The notes under the pieces are model-generated. The model was not told where the DNA came from, made no database searches, and saw only the letters and a list, made by a program, of their open reading frames with translations. The position numbers and the translations under genes are program-made. 64,000 bases of DNA from Burkholderiales bacterium (GTDB lineage Bacteria > Pseudomonadota > Gammaproteobacteria > Burkholderiales > Burkholderiaceae_C), in assembly GCA_013044035.1 (NCBI GenBank), contig JABEVE010000050.1, positions 1-64,000 on the forward strand, given 5' to 3'. Below are positions 1-6,919 of this stretch, piece by piece. Numbering within the stretch: the stretch's first letter is position 1; every line of letters starts with the position of its first letter.

Positions 1-738
1 AATCACTGTAGAAACCCGACCGCAAAACGCACCCCGGCGGCGTGCGTCAACCGCTCACGATCGTTGTCGCTGAGCGATCAAGGTAATTGTCGGCCGCCAG
101 TCGTGCGCACTACGATCAGCGATGCCAAGGCGCCGTGCCCGTTGGACCGGGTGGGCAGGGTCTTCAAGGCCGACCGACCCAATCAGCTTTGGGTGTCCGA
201 TTTCACGTACGTGTCGACCTGGCAAGGCTGGCTGTACGTGGCGTTCGTCATCGACGTCTTCGCCCGGCACATCGTCGGCTGGCGCGTGAGCAGTTCCATG
301 CGCACGGACTTCGTCCCCGACGCCCTGGAGCAGGCCCTGTATGCACGGCAGCCCGAACGCGACGACGCCTTGATTCATCACTCGGACCGCAGGTCGCAAT
401 ACGTCAGTATTCGCTACACCGAGCGGCTGGCCGAGGCCGGCATCGAGCCCTCAGTGGGCAGCGAGGGCGACAGCTACGACAACGCCCTGGCCGAGACGAT
501 CAACGGCCTGTACAAGGCAGAGCTGATCCATCGCCGCGCGCCGTGGAAGACCAAGGAATCCGTCGAGCTGGCCACTCTGGAATGGGTCGCCTGGTTCAAC
601 AACCACCGCTAGATGGAACCCCTGGGCTCTATCCCTCCCGCAGAAGCTGAGGCAAACTACGACCGGCAACACGCCAGTCAGGCCCCCAACTCGGCATGGC
701 TTAAACCAACCGGCCTCCACGGAACCCGGAGCGGTTCA
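1..738 (+). mobile_element. IS3-family insertion sequence, right part (left end outside window)
   Basis: The stretch carries an OrfB-type DDE transposase reading frame, followed by the A/C-rich tail and a terminal GGAACCCGGAGCGGTTCA (721-738) that resembles IS3-family right ends as I remember them. The left end lies outside the window, so size and target duplication cannot be judged. The transposase is damaged (see its own entry), so the copy looks inactive unless helped in trans. The right boundary is an estimate. Confidence 0.7.
1..738 (+). pseudogene. IS3-family OrfB transposase, interrupted by an amber codon
   Basis: The frame is open from the window edge to TAG at 610-612. It contains the integrase-like catalytic core: counting from the TTG at 64, Asp46 (SDFTYV), Asp108 (HHSD) and Glu144 (ALAETING), with D-35-E spacing. 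The TAG follows WFNNHR, where family members continue with Leu-hydrophobic-Glu-Pro. The same frame goes on as MEPLGSIPPAEAEANY, the usual OrfB C-terminus, so a Leu codon has become a stop. The Gly that normally follows the second Asp (HHSDRGSQY) is Arg here. The normal C-terminal stop also appears lost, because the frame runs through the element end to 813. The first about 35 codons do not look like normal OrfB. The gene is therefore decayed. Confidence 0.75.
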
Positions 739-768
739 GTCTCGTCCATTCCGAGTTCCGTCACTGCG

Positions 769-1269
769 TTATTTCTGAGAACGCGATGGCTTTTTGACCC
801 CAGACGCTCCTGACCCCGTTTCGCTTTCCGACGGATCTTCAGGCCAATACTTGGCGATAAGGCCAGCAAGGGCCGCCCCAGCCAAGGGAATGAGCAGTGG
901 TCCGGCGATGAAGCCAACTGCGCCCAAATACGGGCGCAAGGCATCAAGCATCCCGCCAGAACTGGCGCCAGCCCAATCTTTAGGTGGGACGTCACCAACG
1001 ACGATGCCCTTGGCCTTGAACTCCTCTTCAAGCTCCTCCGCCTTTCCCAGAACAAAGGCGGAGCTAACACCCAAGGCTTTCGCTGCAGCGCGCAGTTGCT
1101 CAGTCGAGAGCTGACTACTCCCCTGTTCAATTCTTGACCAGGTGGTGGCCCCCACACCGGCCGCCTTGCCAAGTTGATCCTGGGTCAGATTCTTTTCCTT
1201 ACGCAGGCGTGCAAGGACAGCACCCAGGATGGCTGCTGATGTCGTCACTACTGATGACGCGTCGCTCAT
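769..1269 (-). CDS. XRE-family helix-turn-helix protein with C-terminal hydrophobic segment
   Basis: The protein has 166 residues. Residues about 17-72 form a Cro/C1-type HTH (LARLRKEKNLTQDQLGKAAG, WSRIEQG, then LGVSSAFVLG). After a charged stretch (80-88) comes a long hydrophobic segment (about 114-139, rich in Gly, Ala, Leu and Ile), then a polar tail. This suggests a membrane-tethered regulator. The start at 1269 is preceded by AGAGGA at good spacing; an upstream ATG at 1305 has no such site. It is divergent from the small gene at 1420, and the shared gap contains repeated ATGCAWA motifs, so it probably regulates that gene and itself. DNA binding is family knowledge; membrane anchoring and target are inference. 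Confidence 0.75.
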   Translation of the reverse strand: MSDASSVVTTSAAILGAVLARLRKEKNLTQDQLGKAAGVGATTWSRIEQGSSQLSTEQLRAAAKALGVSSAFVLGKAEELEEEFKAKGIVVGDVPPKDWAGASSGGMLDALRPYLGAVGFIAGPLLIPLAGAALAGLIAKYWPEDPSESETGSGASGVKKPSRSQK

Positions 1270-1316
1270 AAAAGTCCTCTTGCATCCGCTGATCTTGGGA
1301 AGCATGTTAGCTCAAA

Positions 1317-1374
1317 ATGCATACAATCTCATGATGCAAATTTTTACTATTTGATTGTTTGCATGTGATGCATA
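1317..1374. promoter_or_regulatory. Cluster of four ATGCAWA motifs in a divergent promoter (putative operator)
   Basis: ATGCATA occurs at 1317-1323 and 1368-1374, ATGCAAA at 1334-1340 and its complement TTTGCAT at 1358-1364. The last two form an inverted pair. The cluster lies between the XRE gene start (1269) and the gene at 1420 and overlaps the promoter proposed for the latter. This is the usual location of XRE operators. The binding itself is inferred. Confidence 0.45.
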
Positions 1375-1387
1375 TTTGCTCTACACT
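1359..1387 (+). promoter_or_regulatory. Putative sigma-70 promoter for the 1420 operon
   Basis: A TTGCAT -35 (1359-1364) and a TACACT -10 (1382-1387) are separated by 17 bp. The -35 and spacer contain two of the four ATGCAWA motifs, so a bound repressor would block polymerase. The AUG at 1420 lies about 30 bases downstream. Confidence 0.4.
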
Positions 1388-1419
1388 ACACCCATTGCAA
1401 TCGACCGGAGAGCAAAGCG

Positions 1420-1698
1420 ATGAAACACACCAAGCACAGCGCACGCCGCATGCAACAGCGCGGCATCCCTCGCCTGATGATTGAGATGCTGCAACGTTTT
1501 GGCAAGCGAGCCTACGACCACCATGGTGGCGTTGTCCGCTATCTGGATAAGTCGGCGCGACGCACCATCGAGAAATACGTCGGATCTCAGGTGTATCGGC
1601 GGATGCATGAGTTTCACGACGCCTATCTGGTGGAGGCCGTGGACAACGGCACCGTCATCACATGCGGCCACCGCTTCGCCGGCCTGCATCTGCACTAA
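1420..1698 (+). CDS. Small DUF4258-like protein, unknown function
   Basis: The protein has 92 residues and is basic. It starts MKHTKHSARRMQQRGI, resembling the H-x-R-x-x-x-R-G-I opening of DUF4258-type proteins, and ends with a beta-rich stretch (YLVEAVDNGTVITCGHRF). No signal peptide or membrane segment is seen. GGAGAG lies upstream of the ATG. It is the first gene after a promoter shared with the divergent XRE regulator, and two tiny membrane-protein genes follow within 20 bp. Small proteins of this shape next to an XRE gene sometimes belong to toxin-antitoxin pairs, but no RelE or HigB active-site pattern is visible. The family link is moderate and no function is assigned. Confidence 0.6.
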   Translation: MKHTKHSARRMQQRGIPRLMIEMLQRFGKRAYDHHGGVVRYLDKSARRTIEKYVGSQVYRRMHEFHDAYLVEAVDNGTVITCGHRFAGLHLH

Positions 1699-1718
1699 GC
1701 CACACTGGGAGATCTTGC

Positions 1719-1868
1719 ATGCTTTCCTATGCTCAACATCTGACGGTTTCATGGCGCGCCATAAGGCTTGACGTACTTGAATTCATCGGTTTCATCGTGC
1801 TGTCGACGACTTTGCGGGTCACCTTCAAGCAGGCCCTCAAGTCCTTTTTGACAACTTTCGGGAAATGA
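1719..1868 (+). CDS. Tiny putative membrane protein (49 aa)
   Basis: The ATG at 1719 has a strong GGGAGA ribosome-binding site 6-7 bases upstream, and the frame is 49 codons. One hydrophobic stretch (LEFIGFIVLSTTL, about 20-32) is flanked by basic residues, as in a single-pass small membrane protein. The gene begins 20 bp after the preceding stop, and its TGA overlaps the next ATG (ATGA at 1865-1868), indicating translational coupling. I do not recognise the sequence. Support comes from the ribosome-binding site, the coupling and the hydrophobic profile. Confidence 0.5.
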   Translation: MLSYAQHLTVSWRAIRLDVLEFIGFIVLSTTLRVTFKQALKSFLTTFGK

Positions 1869-2065
1869 TCATGCTCATCCTCATCACCACCTTCATCGCC
1901 ACCTTCGTTACCTTGAGCAAGGGACTGATGGTGCTCCTCGGCGTGCTGTTCGGCGGCGTCGCCTTTGTGCTCGTGCTGTTTGCCTTGCTGGTCGCAGGGG
2001 TGAGCGCCCTGATCGAAAGCTGTTCGGGCCGGTGCGCCCACGCCCACGCCCACGCCCACGCCTGA
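1865..2065 (+). CDS. Small two-segment membrane protein with Ala-His tail
   Basis: The protein has 66 residues (64 if the ATG at 1871, better spaced from GGGAA, is used). Two hydrophobic segments (about 3-15 and 21-50) are followed by ESCSGRCAHAHAHAHA. The tail has two Cys and four His in alternation and is encoded by a (CGCCCA)n repeat. Cys and His so placed could bind a metal, but that is inference. It overlaps the previous gene by 4 bp and ends 4 bp before the DUF445 gene, so it is probably translated as part of the same operon. I do not recognise a family. Confidence 0.5.
   Translation: MIMLILITTFIATFVTLSKGLMVLLGVLFGGVAFVLVLFALLVAGVSALIESCSGRCAHAHAHAHA
2035..2062. repeat. Hexanucleotide tandem repeat (CGCCCA)
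   Basis: Four perfect CGCCCA units (2035-2058) plus a partial unit encode the alternating Ala-His C-terminus of the small membrane protein. Because the unit is 6 bp, slippage would add or remove Ala-His pairs without changing frame. Confidence 0.85.
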
Positions 2066-2069
2066 ACGG

Positions 2070-3413
2070 ATGCCCCGCATGCACTCAGCCCCATCGTCCC
2101 TGGATGTCGCCCCCGACACCGCAGATCTGCGCCTGCAACCTCTGCGGCGGATGCAGCTTGTCGCCCTCGGCTTGCTCGGCTTGGCCCTCGCGGGACTGAT
2201 CACCGCGACCGCATGGGGCGGGCAAGGGCCATGGGGCTGGGTCAAGGCCTTCTGCGAAGCGGCAGCCGTGGGCGCGCTGGCCGACTGGTTTGCCGTGGTC
2301 GCACTGTTTCGTCGGCCGCTGGGTCTTCCCATTCCCCACACCGCCATCATTCCCGCTAACAAGGACCGCATCGCCGACAACCTGGCGGTGTTCGTGCGCG
2401 ATCACTTCCTCGACCCCAAGACCCTGCTGGACAAACTCGCCGTGTTCGACCCGGCCGCACGCCTGAGCCAGTGGCTGGCCGATCCGCTGCGGGTGCAGGG
2501 CTGGGTACACGCCGCGCGCCAATGGGGTTTGCAGGCCCTGGACTGGCTGGATGACCGCCGCCTGCAGCAAGACCTCAAGGGCATCGTGCAGGATGCCCTG
2601 CAGCGCTGGGATGCGGCGCAGACCGCCGGGCAGGTGCTCACCGTGCTCACCCACGACGGCCGCCATCAGGATCTGCTCGACGGCACGCTCGACAAGATCG
2701 GCGAGTTCCTCAATCAGGACGAGGTGAAGCAGCGCGTCTCTGCCCTGCTGGTGAAACATGCCCGCAAGGAGTGGCCCACCATCATCGCCCTGGTCAACAC
2801 CGTGAAGTCCGTGGACAGCGTGGCCGGCTCCCTGGCCGACAAGCTCGCCAGCGCCCTGATGGCCGAACTGCAGGACATCCTGCGCCAACCCGACCATCCG
2901 GTGCGTGTGGCGTATGGCGAGAAAGTGGAAGACTTCATCGCCCGCCTGCGCACCGACCCGGCCCTGGCCGCACGGGTGCAGGAGATCAAGGCGCAACTGA
3001 TCGACAACCCCGCCGTGCACACCTATGTGGACGGTCTGGCGCAAGAAGCCAAGGACTGGCTGCGGCGCGATCTGGCCGATCCGAACTCCCGCCTCGGCCT
3101 GCATCTGCAGGCCGCCCTGAGCAGCATCGGCAGCAAGCTCGCCAGCGACGCCAGCTTGCGCGAGGCGATCAACAGCCACATTCTCTCGGCCGCCGCGCTG
3201 CTGGTGCAGGACCTGCGCGGTGGGGTGACCGAGCACATCGCCTCCACCGTCAAAGGCTGGGATGACCGCGCGTTGGTGCGGGAGATGGAACGCAGCGTGG
3301 GCAAGGACCTGCAGTTCATCCGGATCAACGGCACGCTGGTGGGGGGACTGATGGGCGTGGTGTTGTATGCCGGTGCGCAGTTCTTGCCGATCCTCCTGGC
3401 CCATCTGCATTGA
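2070..3413 (+). CDS. DUF445 family (YjiN-like) inner-membrane protein
   Basis: The protein has 447 residues, close to the usual family length. An N-terminal membrane segment (about 30-48) is followed by the family signature GALADWFAVVALFRRPLGLP and HTAIIPANKDRI. A long, mostly helical middle region precedes a C-terminal membrane segment (VGGLMGVVLYAGAQFLPILL). The likely topology is two membrane anchors with a large soluble domain. Function is unknown in the family. It sits 4 bp after the Ala-His protein gene and appears to be the main product of this operon. Starts at 2070 or 2079 are both possible. Confidence 0.85.
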   Translation: MPRMHSAPSSLDVAPDTADLRLQPLRRMQLVALGLLGLALAGLITATAWGGQGPWGWVKAFCEAAAVGALADWFAVVALFRRPLGLPIPHTAIIPANKDRIADNLAVFVRDHFLDPKTLLDKLAVFDPAARLSQWLADPLRVQGWVHAARQWGLQALDWLDDRRLQQDLKGIVQDALQRWDAAQTAGQVLTVLTHDGRHQDLLDGTLDKIGEFLNQDEVKQRVSALLVKHARKEWPTIIALVNTVKSVDSVAGSLADKLASALMAELQDILRQPDHPVRVAYGEKVEDFIARLRTDPALAARVQEIKAQLIDNPAVHTYVDGLAQEAKDWLRRDLADPNSRLGLHLQAALSSIGSKLASDASLREAINSHILSAAALLVQDLRGGVTEHIASTVKGWDDRALVREMERSVGKDLQFIRINGTLVGGLMGVVLYAGAQFLPILLAHLH

Positions 3414-3472
3414 GCGGCCCCACAGAACCCACTGTCGGCCCGATGGCCATCACAACCCGCGAGGCGACTCCC

Positions 3473-4480
3473 ATGTCGGATACCTTCCCCCTTCTTCCAG
3501 CCCCGGAACCCCAAGCCGAAGCCGGCGCACAGGATGGCGAGGCCGATGGTGGCCTGCGGACGTTACCCGACGGCGATCATCTCATCGGCCAGATGACGGT
3601 GGCTTATGTGTGCATCGGCTGTGAGAAATTTCTGCAACGCTTGGTGGTGGACTGGGTCTACCCGGCGGGGAAGACCATCTGCTTCGGCACCATGCCCATG
3701 GTCTATGACGTCGCAAGGCGCCGGGATCGCCCGCACCGCTTTGACCACCTTCTTGGGCCGAACCCCACGGGTGTGGAGCAATCCGTCCTGTTCGAGGAGG
3801 TGCTCTGCGAGGCCTGCTATCCCCAGCGGCAGGAGACATGTGAGGCCAATACCCGCAAGCTGGATGCATGGTGGCCGTCGTACCGGCGGGTGAGCGCGTT
3901 GGCCCGAATCGCCCAGGAGGACCTCGAGCGCAATATCGAGCCCAGCGTGCAGCGTGTGGTCGACGCCATCACCGCAGCGGATCTGCCGCAGATCCTGGGG
4001 GAGGCGCAGTGTACTGAACTGGCCTGTAAGCATCGCACGCCCGCCAGGCGTGAGCGGCAACTGCGCAACTTCTTGCATCAGCACCAACGCCGCATCGAGC
4101 GTTACATCTTCTCTCGCCTGGATCGCAAGGCGCTTTGGGATCGGGATGGTTTTCTGCAGGCGGTGGTCGCGTCGCGCCATCTGGCGAAAGAGCTCGGCCT
4201 GGAGGGGGACGTGTCCTTCGCACGACGGCTGGATCGCCCCGAGCTCGGGGCCTACGGAACGATCGGTTTCGGAAGCCAGTTGGCGCAAGTCTGCAACCCG
4301 GAGGCGCTGCAGGCGTGGCCCACCATGTGGGAGTTATTGACGCTCAATGCGCTTCAACGCATCCGGCAGACGCGCTCCGAGATCAAGTTTCCGTATTTCT
4401 TTGGCGCGGTCGAGCAGCTTCGCAAGAAGGTGACGGAGCTGGCGATAGCGACGTTCATCGCACCGGACATCATTCAATGA
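3473..4480 (+). CDS. Unrecognised Cys-containing protein
   Basis: The protein has 335 residues from the ATG at 3473, which is preceded by GAGGCG at good spacing; the frame is open upstream to a TTG at 3410. I do not recognise it. The first 35 residues are acidic and low in complexity. Two CxxC pairs (Cys47/Cys50 and Cys112/Cys115), with Cys70 and Cys123 nearby, suggest a zinc site in the N-terminal half. The C-terminal half is charged and helical. No signal peptide or membrane segment is seen. It lies about 60 bp after the DUF445 gene on the same strand and could be co-transcribed with it. Confidence 0.65.
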   Translation: MSDTFPLLPAPEPQAEAGAQDGEADGGLRTLPDGDHLIGQMTVAYVCIGCEKFLQRLVVDWVYPAGKTICFGTMPMVYDVARRRDRPHRFDHLLGPNPTGVEQSVLFEEVLCEACYPQRQETCEANTRKLDAWWPSYRRVSALARIAQEDLERNIEPSVQRVVDAITAADLPQILGEAQCTELACKHRTPARRERQLRNFLHQHQRRIERYIFSRLDRKALWDRDGFLQAVVASRHLAKELGLEGDVSFARRLDRPELGAYGTIGFGSQLAQVCNPEALQAWPTMWELLTLNALQRIRQTRSEIKFPYFFGAVEQLRKKVTELAIATFIAPDIIQ

Positions 4481-4638
4481 AATTTCTTCGAGTGACGATC
4501 AATGATGGCGCATGACGCGCGCCCGGCTTTGTGCCTTGTCAGGGCATCAATTCGTCGTCGGCGGGCTGCGCTGTAGGCTCACCATCACGTTGCCCTGGCT
4601 GCACTGAACCTGCATTCCGACGTCACAAGGACTTCACT

Positions 4639-4896
4639 GTGCTCTGGATTTTTCTGATCGGGATCTTCGTCGTGGCCATCGGACTGTTTGTGCTTGTGGC
4701 GTATATCACGATCCTGGTCGCCCTGTCGGTCGCTGGAGCGGTGTACTTCGTGTGCTTTTTGGTGTGTCTACAACTCTTCCCGGCCGATCTCCTCCCGGCA
4801 GCGCTCTTGGTCAGCGCAGTGGTCGGCACCCTGGTGAACTATGGGCTTTATCGCGCCTTTGTGCCAGAGGACAATCATCAGAAACAATCGCACTGA
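4639..4896 (+). CDS. Small membrane protein (85 aa), GTG start
   Basis: A GTG at 4639 follows AAGGA with 7-8 bp spacing and opens an 85-residue frame. It consists almost entirely of hydrophobic segments: LWIFLIGIFVVAIGLFVLVA, then a second and a third, ending in a short polar tail (YRAFVPEDNHQKQSH). The in-frame ATG at 4531 would add a polar, Cys-rich leader with no ribosome-binding site and is less likely. The stop lies five bases before the left end of the IS30 element, so the insertion spared the gene. No family is recognised. Confidence 0.55.
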   Translation: MLWIFLIGIFVVAIGLFVLVAYITILVALSVAGAVYFVCFLVCLQLFPADLLPAALLVSAVVGTLVNYGLYRAFVPEDNHQKQSH

Positions 4897-4901
4897 ATGA
4901 C

Positions 4902-4929
4902 GGCGGTTTCAAGAGCGAAGTGCAACGCC
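4902..4929. repeat. IS30 element terminal inverted repeat, left
   Basis: It reads GGCGGTTTCAAG, then GAAGTGCAACGCC, and matches the complement of 5983-6010 except for a 2-bp, a 4-bp and a single-base mismatch. Confidence 0.75.
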
Positions 4930-4935
4930 CGTTGG

Positions 4936-5958
4936 TTATTGAATTGAGGAGGGAGCTTCGTGGGTATTGGCCAGCATTTGCGCGAAGACCTCCAAGGGGG
5001 AACGGAATCCATGGGTGGCGCGTGGCCTGCCGTTGAGGCTGTCAGCGATGGCATCGAGGTCAGCCTGGGAGCACACCGACAAGTCGGTACCCTTGGGCAG
5101 ATATTGGCGCAGCAATCCGTTGGTGTTCTCGCAGGTGCCGCGCTGCCAAGGGCTGTGGGGGTCACAGAAGTAGACGCGCACGCCGGTCTTGGAAGTGAGT
5201 TCTGCATGGCGCGTCATCTCCCGACCCTGGTCATACGTCATGCTCTGGCGCAGCGGCGCGGCAATCGACCGCAGCTTGGCCGTAAAGCCAGCCAGGGCCG
5301 AGGCGGCCGTGGCATCGGGCATCTGCACGAGCAACAGCAGACGGCTGGAGCGCTCCACCAGCACGCCCACGGCGGACTTGTTGCCAGCCCCCTTGATGAG
5401 GTCGCCCTCCCAGTGTCCAGGCATCAAGCGGTCTTCCATCTCGGGCGGGCGTACATGGATGCTGATCATCTCGGGAATCTGGCCGCGGCGGTCGGTGCCA
5501 CGCAAACGCGGCAGGCGCTTCGCATGGCCATGGCGCAGACAGGCAATCAACTGTCTGCGCAACTCCCCACGGGCCTGGGCGTCGATGGCGGTGTAGATGG
5601 TCTCGTGGGAGACGTGGAGTTCGGGGCGGTCTGGGTGCACCCGACGCAGTGTGCCAGCAATCTGCTGGGGCGAATACTTCCAGGCCAGCAGCGTCGACAC
5701 GACGCCCCACAGCACCCCATCAGGCGCCAGCTTCGCCGCTGGGCGGCGGGCTACGGCACGCCGCACACACGCGGCTTGCGCAGCCATGGCGTTATAGGCA
5801 CCCTCGACCGGGAGATTGCGGGAAAGCTCGCGCGTGAGCGTCGATGGCGCGCGGTTCAGCATCCGGGCCATGGCCCGGATGCTGAACTCCTGCTGTTTCC
5901 AGATCTCGATGCGCATGCACTCTTGGGGCTGAAGTTGTCGGTACGTCGTTCTTGTCAT
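4936..5958 (-). CDS. IS30-family transposase
   Basis: The protein has 340 residues. The N-terminal HTH (about 24-50, IRAMARMLNRAPSTLTRELS) is typical of IS30 transposases. The catalytic core has Asp186 (GHWEGDLIKG), Asp243 (MTYDQG) and Glu277 (WQRGTCENTNG), giving the D-33-E spacing of the family. Full length and lack of frameshifts suggest that it is functional. It fills nearly the whole element, with the start close to the right inverted repeat. Confidence 0.95.
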   Translation of the reverse strand: MTRTTYRQLQPQECMRIEIWKQQEFSIRAMARMLNRAPSTLTRELSRNLPVEGAYNAMAAQAACVRRAVARRPAAKLAPDGVLWGVVSTLLAWKYSPQQIAGTLRRVHPDRPELHVSHETIYTAIDAQARGELRRQLIACLRHGHAKRLPRLRGTDRRGQIPEMISIHVRPPEMEDRLMPGHWEGDLIKGAGNKSAVGVLVERSSRLLLLVQMPDATAASALAGFTAKLRSIAAPLRQSMTYDQGREMTRHAELTSKTGVRVYFCDPHSPWQRGTCENTNGLLRQYLPKGTDLSVCSQADLDAIADSLNGRPRATHGFRSPLEVFAQMLANTHEAPSSIQ

Positions 5959-5982
5959 TCACTGCACCTTACCGGATGGCAA

Positions 5983-6010
5983 GGTGTTGCACTTCAGATT
6001 TGAGGCCGCC
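5983..6010. repeat. IS30 element terminal inverted repeat, right
   Basis: It is the partner of 4902-4929. Read on the minus strand it begins GGCGGCCTCAAATCTGAAG and continues GTGCAACACC. Confidence 0.75.
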
Positions 6011-6223
6011 CTGCTTTTGTCATAACCCGTTTTTCATTGCAAAAAGCTCAAGGCAACGGCTGGGGAAATTGCAGCCTGACTGCGATGCACCCCCTACGAG
6101 ATGGTGCATGTCGGTGTTGTTCGCAACAATCTCGCACCTTGGGTGCCAGAGTCGCCTCATCGAGACGAACGATCAGACGGGCAAGAGCCCATGCTTACAC
6201 CTTGTTTGCCAGGGTGCGTGACC

Positions 6224-6263
6224 GGCGGCGATGCCGCCTACAGGCCTGATCGCCCATCAGGCC
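6224..6263 (-). terminator. Two adjacent hairpins at the end of the HlyIII gene (weak terminator candidate)
   Basis: GGCCTGAT-CGCCC-ATCAGGCC (6243-6263) spans the stop codon of the HlyIII gene, and GGCGGC-GAT-GCCGCC (6224-6238) lies just beyond. Neither is followed by a T-tract on the minus strand, so intrinsic termination is uncertain. Confidence 0.3.
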
Positions 6264-6919
6264 GCGTACAGCAGCACCGCGAAGAAATGGAACACGGTGC
6301 CGGCGAGCACGAACAGATGCCAGATGAAATGCGTGTAGGGAACTTTCTCGTCGAGCAGGAAAAACACCACGCCTAATGTGTAGGACACTCCGCCTGCCAG
6401 CAGTAGCGCCAGGCCCGGCGCCGGCATATCGACCCAGAGCGGGCGTATGGCGATCAGCACCACCCAGCCCATGGCGAGGTAAAGGAAGGTGGATAGGCGG
6501 GGGAAACGTGTGCCACCCAAGGCTTTGAAAAACAGACCTGCCAGGGCAAGGGCCCAGATCAGACCGAATAGGACCCAGCCCCAGACGCCGCGCAGCACAC
6601 CCAGGGTGAAGGGGGTGTAAGTGCCGGCAATGAACAGATAAATGGCCACATGATCGACGACCTGCAACACGCCTTTGACGCGCTTCTGAGGCAGGGCGTG
6701 ATAGAGCGTGGAGACGAGGTAAAGCAGAATGGCGGTGCTGCCGAAGATGATGGCGCCGACAAGCGTTGTCGCGCTTCCCAACACAGCAAAATGAACGACG
6801 AGGATCGGAAGCGCGGCGATGGCCAGTGCCAGACCCAGGCCGTGGCTCAGGCTGTTGGCGATCTCCTCACCGGGAGTCTGAGCACGCGAGACCGCAGGAA
6901 CCGAGTGATGTTGTGCCAT
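6257..6919 (-). CDS. Hemolysin III (HlyIII/PAQR-like) membrane protein
   Basis: The protein has 220 residues from the ATG at 6919, the usual length; upstream in-frame ATGs would add an unlikely Cys-rich leader. It has about seven hydrophobic segments. HlyIII signatures include EEIANSLSHGLG near the N-terminus, STLYHAL after the second segment, VDHVAIYLFIAGTYTPF in the middle, and the C-terminal YTHFIWHLFVLAGTVFHF. The conserved His and Asp residues form the metal site of the superfamily. Despite the name, haemolysis is not the established role. It is last in a run with the ABM-fold and SDR genes. Confidence 0.85.
   Translation of the reverse strand: MAQHHSVPAVSRAQTPGEEIANSLSHGLGLALAIAALPILVVHFAVLGSATTLVGAIIFGSTAILLYLVSTLYHALPQKRVKGVLQVVDHVAIYLFIAGTYTPFTLGVLRGVWGWVLFGLIWALALAGLFFKALGGTRFPRLSTFLYLAMGWVVLIAIRPLWVDMPAPGLALLLAGGVSYTLGVVFFLLDEKVPYTHFIWHLFVLAGTVFHFFAVLLYAA

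Follow-up and report, generated by a model that had tools for sequence, protein, structure and literature searches.

Juk (jumbo-phage killer) systems, in which JukA is the sensor and the effectors are diverse, are marked by protection against nucleus-forming jumbo phages. DUF445 is a family found across bacteria, and for DUF445/YjiN proteins we know of no tested function that could serve for comparison. A 2026 review (PMC13282480) ranks JukA among the most frequent immune proteins that Gram-negative bacteria possess and notes that its effectors vary. In a 2025 mBio survey (PMC11980606), DUF4258 appears among the toxin families of the RelE/ParE superfamily, with an unknown target. In the window, which is the whole 64,000-nt stretch of Burkholderiales DNA analyzed here, a cassette bounded by two insertion sequences carries the following features:

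1 to 738, plus strand: C-terminal part of an IS3-family transposase, left boundary of the cassette (NCBIfam IS3, 8.5e-59, model positions 190 to 355 of 369)
769 to 1269, minus strand: XRE regulator, 166 aa, with HTH at about 15 to 71 and a hydrophobic segment at 120 to 138
1420 to 1698, plus strand: D4258, a 92-aa DUF4258-like protein with a marginal Pfam match, in a clade with three others, two of them next to jukA
1719 to 1868, plus strand: s49, a weakly hydrophobic 49-aa ORF, after a 20-bp gap
1865 to 2065, plus strand: s66, a 66-aa membrane ORF overlapping s49 by 4 bp
2070 to 3413, plus strand: DUF445 (YjiN-like) membrane protein, 447 aa, after a 4-bp gap
3473 to 4480, plus strand: Cys335, a Cys-rich, family-orphan protein of 335 aa with two CxxC pairs
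4639 to 4896, plus strand: m85, an 85-aa membrane protein with start GTG and three hydrophobic segments
4902 to 6010, minus strand: IS30-family element (IS1086-like), right boundary, starting 5 bases past the m85 stop

We lean toward the reading that this cassette is related to the Juk-type anti-phage gene sets, has been rearranged and probably moved horizontally, and has had its jukA lost or replaced. The gene positions and the three tight spacings are as the first-pass annotation gave them. Its decayed IS3 end is indeed only a transposase C-terminus, which has a stop preceding the model end and is truncated where the contig begins (base 1 of contig C91 being window base 1), and its intact IS30 element was borne out by a 340-aa ORF and 28-nt end repeats (4902 to 4929 and 5983 to 6010, 75% alike); both flanking elements are ordinary. 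Hydropathy analysis gave one segment in XRE, two in s66, three each in DUF445 and m85 and a borderline one in s49 (1.60), so that the count of four membrane proteins among six holds for the rightward genes if s49 is included. One promoter-like site (0.9 in shuffles) and one terminator-like site (3.1 in shuffles) were found in positions 600 to 5000, and a single transcript is plausible.

Two loci connect the cassette genes to jukA. L090, a MAG contig, contains the same divergent pair (XRE 75% and D4258 85% identical) with jukA next to it, the order running from XRE/D4258 through a 93-aa ORF at the s49 position to jukA (PADLOC, 3e-61) and an ORF with an s66-like start; this jukA had no match in viral contigs. 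L155, whose host belongs to the same order as that of the window but to a different family, carries a run of D4258 (69%), a 29-aa ORF, an HTH gene, jukA (PADLOC, 8e-63), an m85 homologue and DUF445 (59%), the named genes lying within 3.6 kb, and an HTH gene adjoins jukA in L155, G040 and G806 alike. These gene runs indicate that D4258, m85 and DUF445 recur with jukA, and thereby tie the set to a known kind, Juk, where the first-pass annotation had matched no known system. Its check of whether the gene order recurs elsewhere came out in part: XRE, D4258 and the s66 start accompany jukA in L090, and D4258, an m85-like gene and DUF445 do so in L155, but no other locus showed the order found in the window, and none had Cys335 together with other cassette genes. 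Linkage and homology of the cassette families to jukA loci are shown, and the set, in our reading, is not a chance assembly; for the cassette itself we infer a probable defense function.

A truncated jukA fragment lies 25 bp from an open DUF445 in G077, a locus spotted by eye ahead of any test of a jukA-DUF445 link. DUF445 was present in 3/17 jukA loci (2/16 without L142, which was chosen since both jukA and DUF445 matched its record, separated by about 5 kb that holds other genes) against 0/66 other D4258 stretches (at least four places being doubled, namely L016/L104, L017/L123, L018/L127 and apparently L073/L119, and two matches, L024 and L025, being weak). The 17 loci are G040, G077, G341, G366, G561, G569, G653, G708, G804, G806, G824, L090, L134-L137 and L142, the last five being five of 63 plasmid records. 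The remaining 14 showed no DUF445, some of them ending at contig ends, and fresh jukA searches gave DUF445 in 1/9 loci. A dynamin-like GTPase next to the L090 pair was not counted as part of the system; in three looked at among its twelve plasmid records it forms a short unit of its own, without any annotated jukA-type neighbor, and a search of 149 relatives returned none, an empty answer there being no proof of absence.

The Juk sensor gene (jukA, YaaW/DUF3944-type) is missing from the window, which qualifies the earlier suspicion of a system, perhaps for phage defense, even as parts of the cassette recur in jukA loci. A tblastn search of positions 1 to 6300 with two JukA proteins gave a best E of 1.1, the host genome (95% complete, with the contig beginning inside the IS3) had no match, and no jukA was found in G018, where D4258 stands at a contig end. 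Instead, s66 and Cys335 occupy the place of jukA in the window. jukA was much rarer in our searches (2/149, 2/369 and 7/399); either they miss many jukA genes or the order has few, so doubt attaches to every jukA absence result.

The XRE protein matches Pfam HTH_31 (2.5e-15), and its hydrophobic C-terminus, already remarked on from the translation as a putative membrane sensor, is one segment at residues 120 to 138 with a hydropathy of 2.10. Nineteen residues of a 20-residue stretch there are unchanged in L090, which, on two sequences compared, does no more than suggest constraint on the C-terminus; the HTH part is equally well conserved. XRE had no match in plasmids (1e-4), two HTH-only matches in phages, none in viral contigs (pattern scan) and none in 149 genomes (1e-8) besides the window itself, and we rejected a known phage or plasmid regulator on these results. 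D4258 had no match in phages or viral contigs. In its tree, the window forms a four-row subclade with L090, L155 and G018 (support 100/100), and two of these three co-members, L090 and L155, adjoin jukA.

DUF445 at 2070 to 3413 was correctly identified, with a full-length PF04286 match (1e-108, 365 bits against a cut-off of 33.8, profile positions 1 to 367 of 368). In the DUF445 tree, which leaves out L044 (from G115, with an internal stop) and L046 (a C-terminal fragment of G020, represented in the tree by its N-terminal fragment), the window and G020 group with L155 (support 97/94), apart from the same-genus G012, G022 and G024; rejection of a single same-genus clade fell short of formal significance (p 0.069). 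L102, near-identical to L101, was left out of A7. No second cassette gene was found near the other DUF445 loci of 18 genomes searched over short flanks, eight having longer stretches and some being cut by contig ends. By blastp (E 0.05), nine DUF445 stretches from eight relatives, some of which stop close to DUF445, held no other cassette gene bar a 29-aa s66 match (E 0.015) within a 957-aa ORF, and conservation of the whole cassette was rejected on this ground. G020, nearest by DUF445, had no D4258, XRE, m85 or jukA match. The window DUF445 had no match in viral contigs, and matches in the plasmid collection include E. coli yjiN.

Pfam gave nothing credible for s49, s66, Cys335 or m85. The ORF at the s49 position in L090 has no significant match to s49 (745/2000 shuffles reach the score); in L155 that position is taken by the 29-aa ORF. 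The first residues of s66 match the L090 ORF after jukA over 18 residues (0/2000 shuffles), with 79% nucleotide identity over 68 bases. m85 had no match in plasmids and is homologous to the 78-aa L155 protein between jukA and DUF445 (34% identity, E 2e-12; score 124 against 39 +/- 6.3 in shuffles, 0/5000). Cys335 remains as unrecognized as it first appeared, with nothing credible in Pfam, NCBIfam, PADLOC or PHROGs, no match in plasmids, phages or viral contigs and no profile similarity to JukA.

The cassette might instead owe its only function to a type II toxin-antitoxin pair, XRE being the antitoxin and D4258 a RelE/ParE-fold toxin, with the rest as cargo. We regard this as possible, at somewhat less than even chance. 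The mBio survey (PMC11980606) places DUF4258 among such toxins, and one D4258 relative is annotated DUF4258; however, the match behind the "DUF4258-like" label exists (8e-4) but falls under the Pfam cut-off (20.1 against 25 bits), only 2/40 members match Pfam DUF4258 at E 0.01, and the D4258 profile found no credible match in the PDB. D4258-like genes lie directly behind a same-strand gene in 25/40 loci, with an HTH match in 3/9 upstream proteins scanned (one above the Pfam cut-off), whereas in the window and L090 the DNA-binding neighbor is a divergent XRE, so the two genes belong to separate operons.

A pure relic, a deletion having removed jukA from between s49 and s66 with the remaining genes now decaying, seems rather unlikely to us. 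The L090 jukA does sit between the s49-position ORF and the s66-like ORF, s66 ends in a CCCACG repeat tail (HAHAHAHA), G077 has a DUF445 with an open frame next to a truncated jukA, and IS elements stand on either side; yet every frame is open and tightly spaced, DUF445 is full-length, and XRE is 75% conserved in L090. Chance neighbors, in which an XRE/D4258 head of foreign origin came to lie next to a DUF445 native to the host and Cys335 and m85 simply ride along between the IS elements, would agree with GC3 (0.58 for XRE and 0.85 for DUF445, the latter inside the 0.71 to 0.87 of 25 large ORFs listed), with the lack of other cassette genes around DUF445 in the remaining genomes looked at, with the failure of any window sequence left of 6252 to match 20 kb from the near relative G013, and with the sole Cys335 relative in 149 genomes (G021), which adjoins an integrase-like gene. 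This explanation is improbable, because D4258, an m85-like gene and DUF445 stand together with jukA in L155, and DUF445 groups with L155 and not with the three other same-genus copies, albeit at the p value above.

The cassette is best read as a jukA-less or sensor-swapped Juk-type variant, in which DUF445 and the small membrane proteins would form the effector side, and XRE and D4258 a pair that is regulatory or resembles a toxin-antitoxin system. The module order would be (XRE), D4258, small hydrophobic ORF, (HTH), jukA, small membrane protein and DUF445. XRE may control the divergent promoter, and D4258 may be its partner, either in co-regulation or in a toxin-antitoxin-like manner. Where the set is complete, JukA would detect an early step of infection at a membrane and then engage DUF445 and the m85-like protein, and these would harm the phage compartment or the membrane. 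The window has an open effector side and lacks the known sensor, so the locus may be a relic or use another sensor, for which Cys335 would be the only candidate in place. That DUF445 is a JukA-type membrane effector and that the window swapped JukA for Cys335 while keeping D4258, the small membrane proteins and DUF445 is a speculative combination, and we doubt it. A link of DUF445 and a family of small membrane proteins to JukA would offer a direct, testable hypothesis for a large family that has no known function, and the jukA-less form raises the question of whether a sensor can be exchanged when the effectors are retained.

Compared with HipB/MqsA-type XRE antitoxins, the window XRE shares the HTH domain, with all NCBIfam matches below cut-off, and differs by its additional hydrophobic C-terminus. 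D4258 shares with DUF4258 and RelE/ParE-superfamily type II toxins a marginal Pfam match and an adjoining DNA-binding gene, but its score is below cut-off, its XRE is divergent, and its toxicity and toxin fold are putative. The window differs from Juk systems in lacking jukA, its PADLOC matches being only generic HTH (XRE). In the literature consulted, partly as abstracts, DUF445 is not named among Juk effectors, and no title or abstract ties the two (few subscription papers and no bioRxiv preprints being covered). The likeness lies in the partner genes: jukA with m85-like and DUF445 genes in L155, where D4258 belongs to the same run, a jukA fragment with DUF445 in G077, and the XRE/D4258 pair and s66-like start flanking JukA in L090. 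The window DUF445 has the full-length PF04286 match of DUF445/YjiN membrane proteins but, unlike these in general, sits in a gene set common to jukA loci.

The cassette lies at the left end of the window, between IS3 and IS30 elements, on a 120-kb contig (C91; the genome has 108 contigs and is 95% complete) whose start falls inside the IS3; the window covers its bases 1-64000. The genes named in the first-pass annotation are all open frames at the following coordinates, with the spacing described there:

769-1269, minus strand: XRE regulator
1420-1698, plus strand: DUF4258-like protein (D4258)
1719-1868, plus strand: 49-aa protein (s49)
1865-2065, plus strand: 66-aa protein (s66)
2070-3413, plus strand: DUF445 protein
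3473-4480, plus strand: Cys-rich protein (Cys335)
4639-4896, plus strand: 85-aa membrane protein (m85)

The hydrophobic C terminus ascribed to XRE was also found, as one hydrophobic segment. Family searches identified just XRE, DUF445, and two transposases; the DUF4258 match was marginal, and s49, s66, Cys335, and m85 gave no credible family match. The GC3 is 0.58 for XRE, 0.72 to 0.77 for D4258, Cys335, and m85, and 0.85 for DUF445. The cassette head and DUF445 differ in how long they have resided in this host or in the donor they came from, which counts against a single recent transfer of the entire cassette. At 2036-2062, four CCCACG repeats encode a His-Ala tail of s66 immediately before DUF445; this may be the scar of a junction or a tail that varies in length.

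Among the relatives, with the genome of the window itself counted in, D4258-like genes occur at E 0.01 in 12 of 149 genomes, a few of these matches being weak, DUF445 in 19 of 100, Cys335 in 2 of 149, and m85 in 2 of 149, its non-window match being weak (E 0.005); XRE was found at 1e-8 in the window's own genome only (1/149). The DUF445 stretches of eight relatives held no further cassette gene, bar one short s66-like match within a long ORF. The near relative G013 aligns with the window from 6252 rightwards at 86%; left of 6252 there is no match in the 20-kb G013 stretch compared, and genome searches of G013 found no D4258, Cys335, DUF445, XRE, or m85. The window's left part is therefore variable DNA.

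Scanning genome contigs with the D4258 alignment yielded 40 loci, the closest being L090, on a contig labelled as an Acidobacteriota MAG, where transfer or mis-binning is possible. It shares the divergent layout, with XRE 75% and D4258 85% identical, and a stretch of about 900 bases that takes in the intergenic region is 75% identical at the DNA level. Past D4258 follow a 93-aa ORF, a 273-aa JukA (PADLOC 3e-61), and an ORF start that matches 18 residues of s66 with a score reached in none of 2000 shuffles. JukA, the sensor of Juk anti-phage systems, recognises proteins made early by the phage at the infection vesicle, according to the available text of a review (PMC13282480). At L090:549-2525, a dynamin-like GTPase relative adjoins the XRE/D4258 pair; dynamin-like GTPases also lie on Klebsiella, Pseudomonas luteola, and Gluconobacter plasmids (L143-L145), with a gene annotated as 'sugar kinase' just upstream.

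More of the gene set recurs in L155, a 3.9-kb contig of genome G653, which carries D4258 (69%), a 29-aa ORF overlapping the next start by 4 bp like s49, an HTH protein, a JukA (66% to that of L090), a 78-aa membrane protein homologous to m85, and DUF445 (59%). Composition does not account for the homology, as the 78-aa protein scores 124 against m85, versus 39 ± 6.3 in 5000 shuffles. The D4258 tree places the window, L090, L155, and G018 in one clade (support 100/100). In both other members with downstream sequence, L090 and L155, jukA is the adjacent gene or the one after it; the G018 copy is cut off by the end of its contig, and searches of that genome found no jukA. The proposal that the cassette is a system is supported for the gene set but not for the window's exact order.

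The link between DUF445 and jukA was assessed by counts. DUF445 is present in the compared stretch of 3 of 17 jukA loci, or 2 of 16 without L142, which was a selected locus. None of the 66 other D4258 stretches has it; they total 533 kb, and some of them repeat one place. About 0.01 would be expected in 200 kb around jukA (from 19/100 genomes of ~4 Mb), a rough figure, as defence genes cluster and G077 was noticed before the link was tested. Among jukA loci from the fresh searches of class and order, 1 of 9 had DUF445, namely G653. The DUF445 tree joins the window and G020 to L155 (support 97/94) and separates them from the same-genus G012, G022, and G024; constraining the genus together was not formally rejected (p 0.069). 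jukA itself was found in 2 of 149 relatives (G040 and G077), 2 of 369 genomes of the class, 7 of 399 of the order (nine-row profile), and, in G653's family, only in G653 (1/32). This is rarer than the available text of the review indicates (PMC13282480), so our searches may miss many jukA. On the Paraburkholderia plasmid locus L142 (3777-11710), jukA and a possible effector gene lie within about 8 kb, where an AAA ATPase, a MotA/ZorA-looking gene, and DUF445 were also seen by eye.

D4258 is a putative member of DUF4258, which the accessible part of a 2025 mBio survey places among the toxin families of the RelE/ParE superfamily, with target unknown (PMC11980606). H6, R10, R14, G28, Y69, and T81 are invariant in a 22-row alignment; in the 40-row alignment, QQRGIP is invariant by construction, since this motif was the pattern used for the scan. 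D4258 lies directly behind a same-strand gene of at least 90 aa in 25 of 40 loci. By eye, the upstream proteins comprise an HTH-type family ('LLANMDERSVRNAANPK'), a ribbon-helix-helix-like family, XRE proteins, and large P-loop proteins; 3 of 9 scanned had Pfam HTH matches, one above the cut-off. Four loci have ECF-sigma-type genes nearby, of which one was identified by a Pfam scan and three were assigned via similarity to it or each other. Across L090-L129 and L073-L089, D4258 forms recurrent tight pairs with several families, by eye mostly DNA-binding and sometimes large P-loop. Such pairs are candidates for an unnamed toxin-antitoxin-like or regulatory pair.

Searches of the window and its genome found no JukA, which leaves two readings: the locus is a relic, or it uses another sensor. 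In G077, only a C-terminal fragment of jukA (L133:6894-7187) is present, 25 bp from a DUF445 gene; this truncated jukA beside an open DUF445 is a second case of DUF445 being retained where the sensor has been damaged or lost. Cys335 as the other sensor is only a guess, because it shows no similarity to JukA; it has two CxxC pairs in common with its one relative. Juk effectors are diverse, and one of them, JukB, forms pores, as the available text of the review has it (PMC13282480); by analogy, we infer that the part acting on the membrane would consist of DUF445 and the small membrane proteins.
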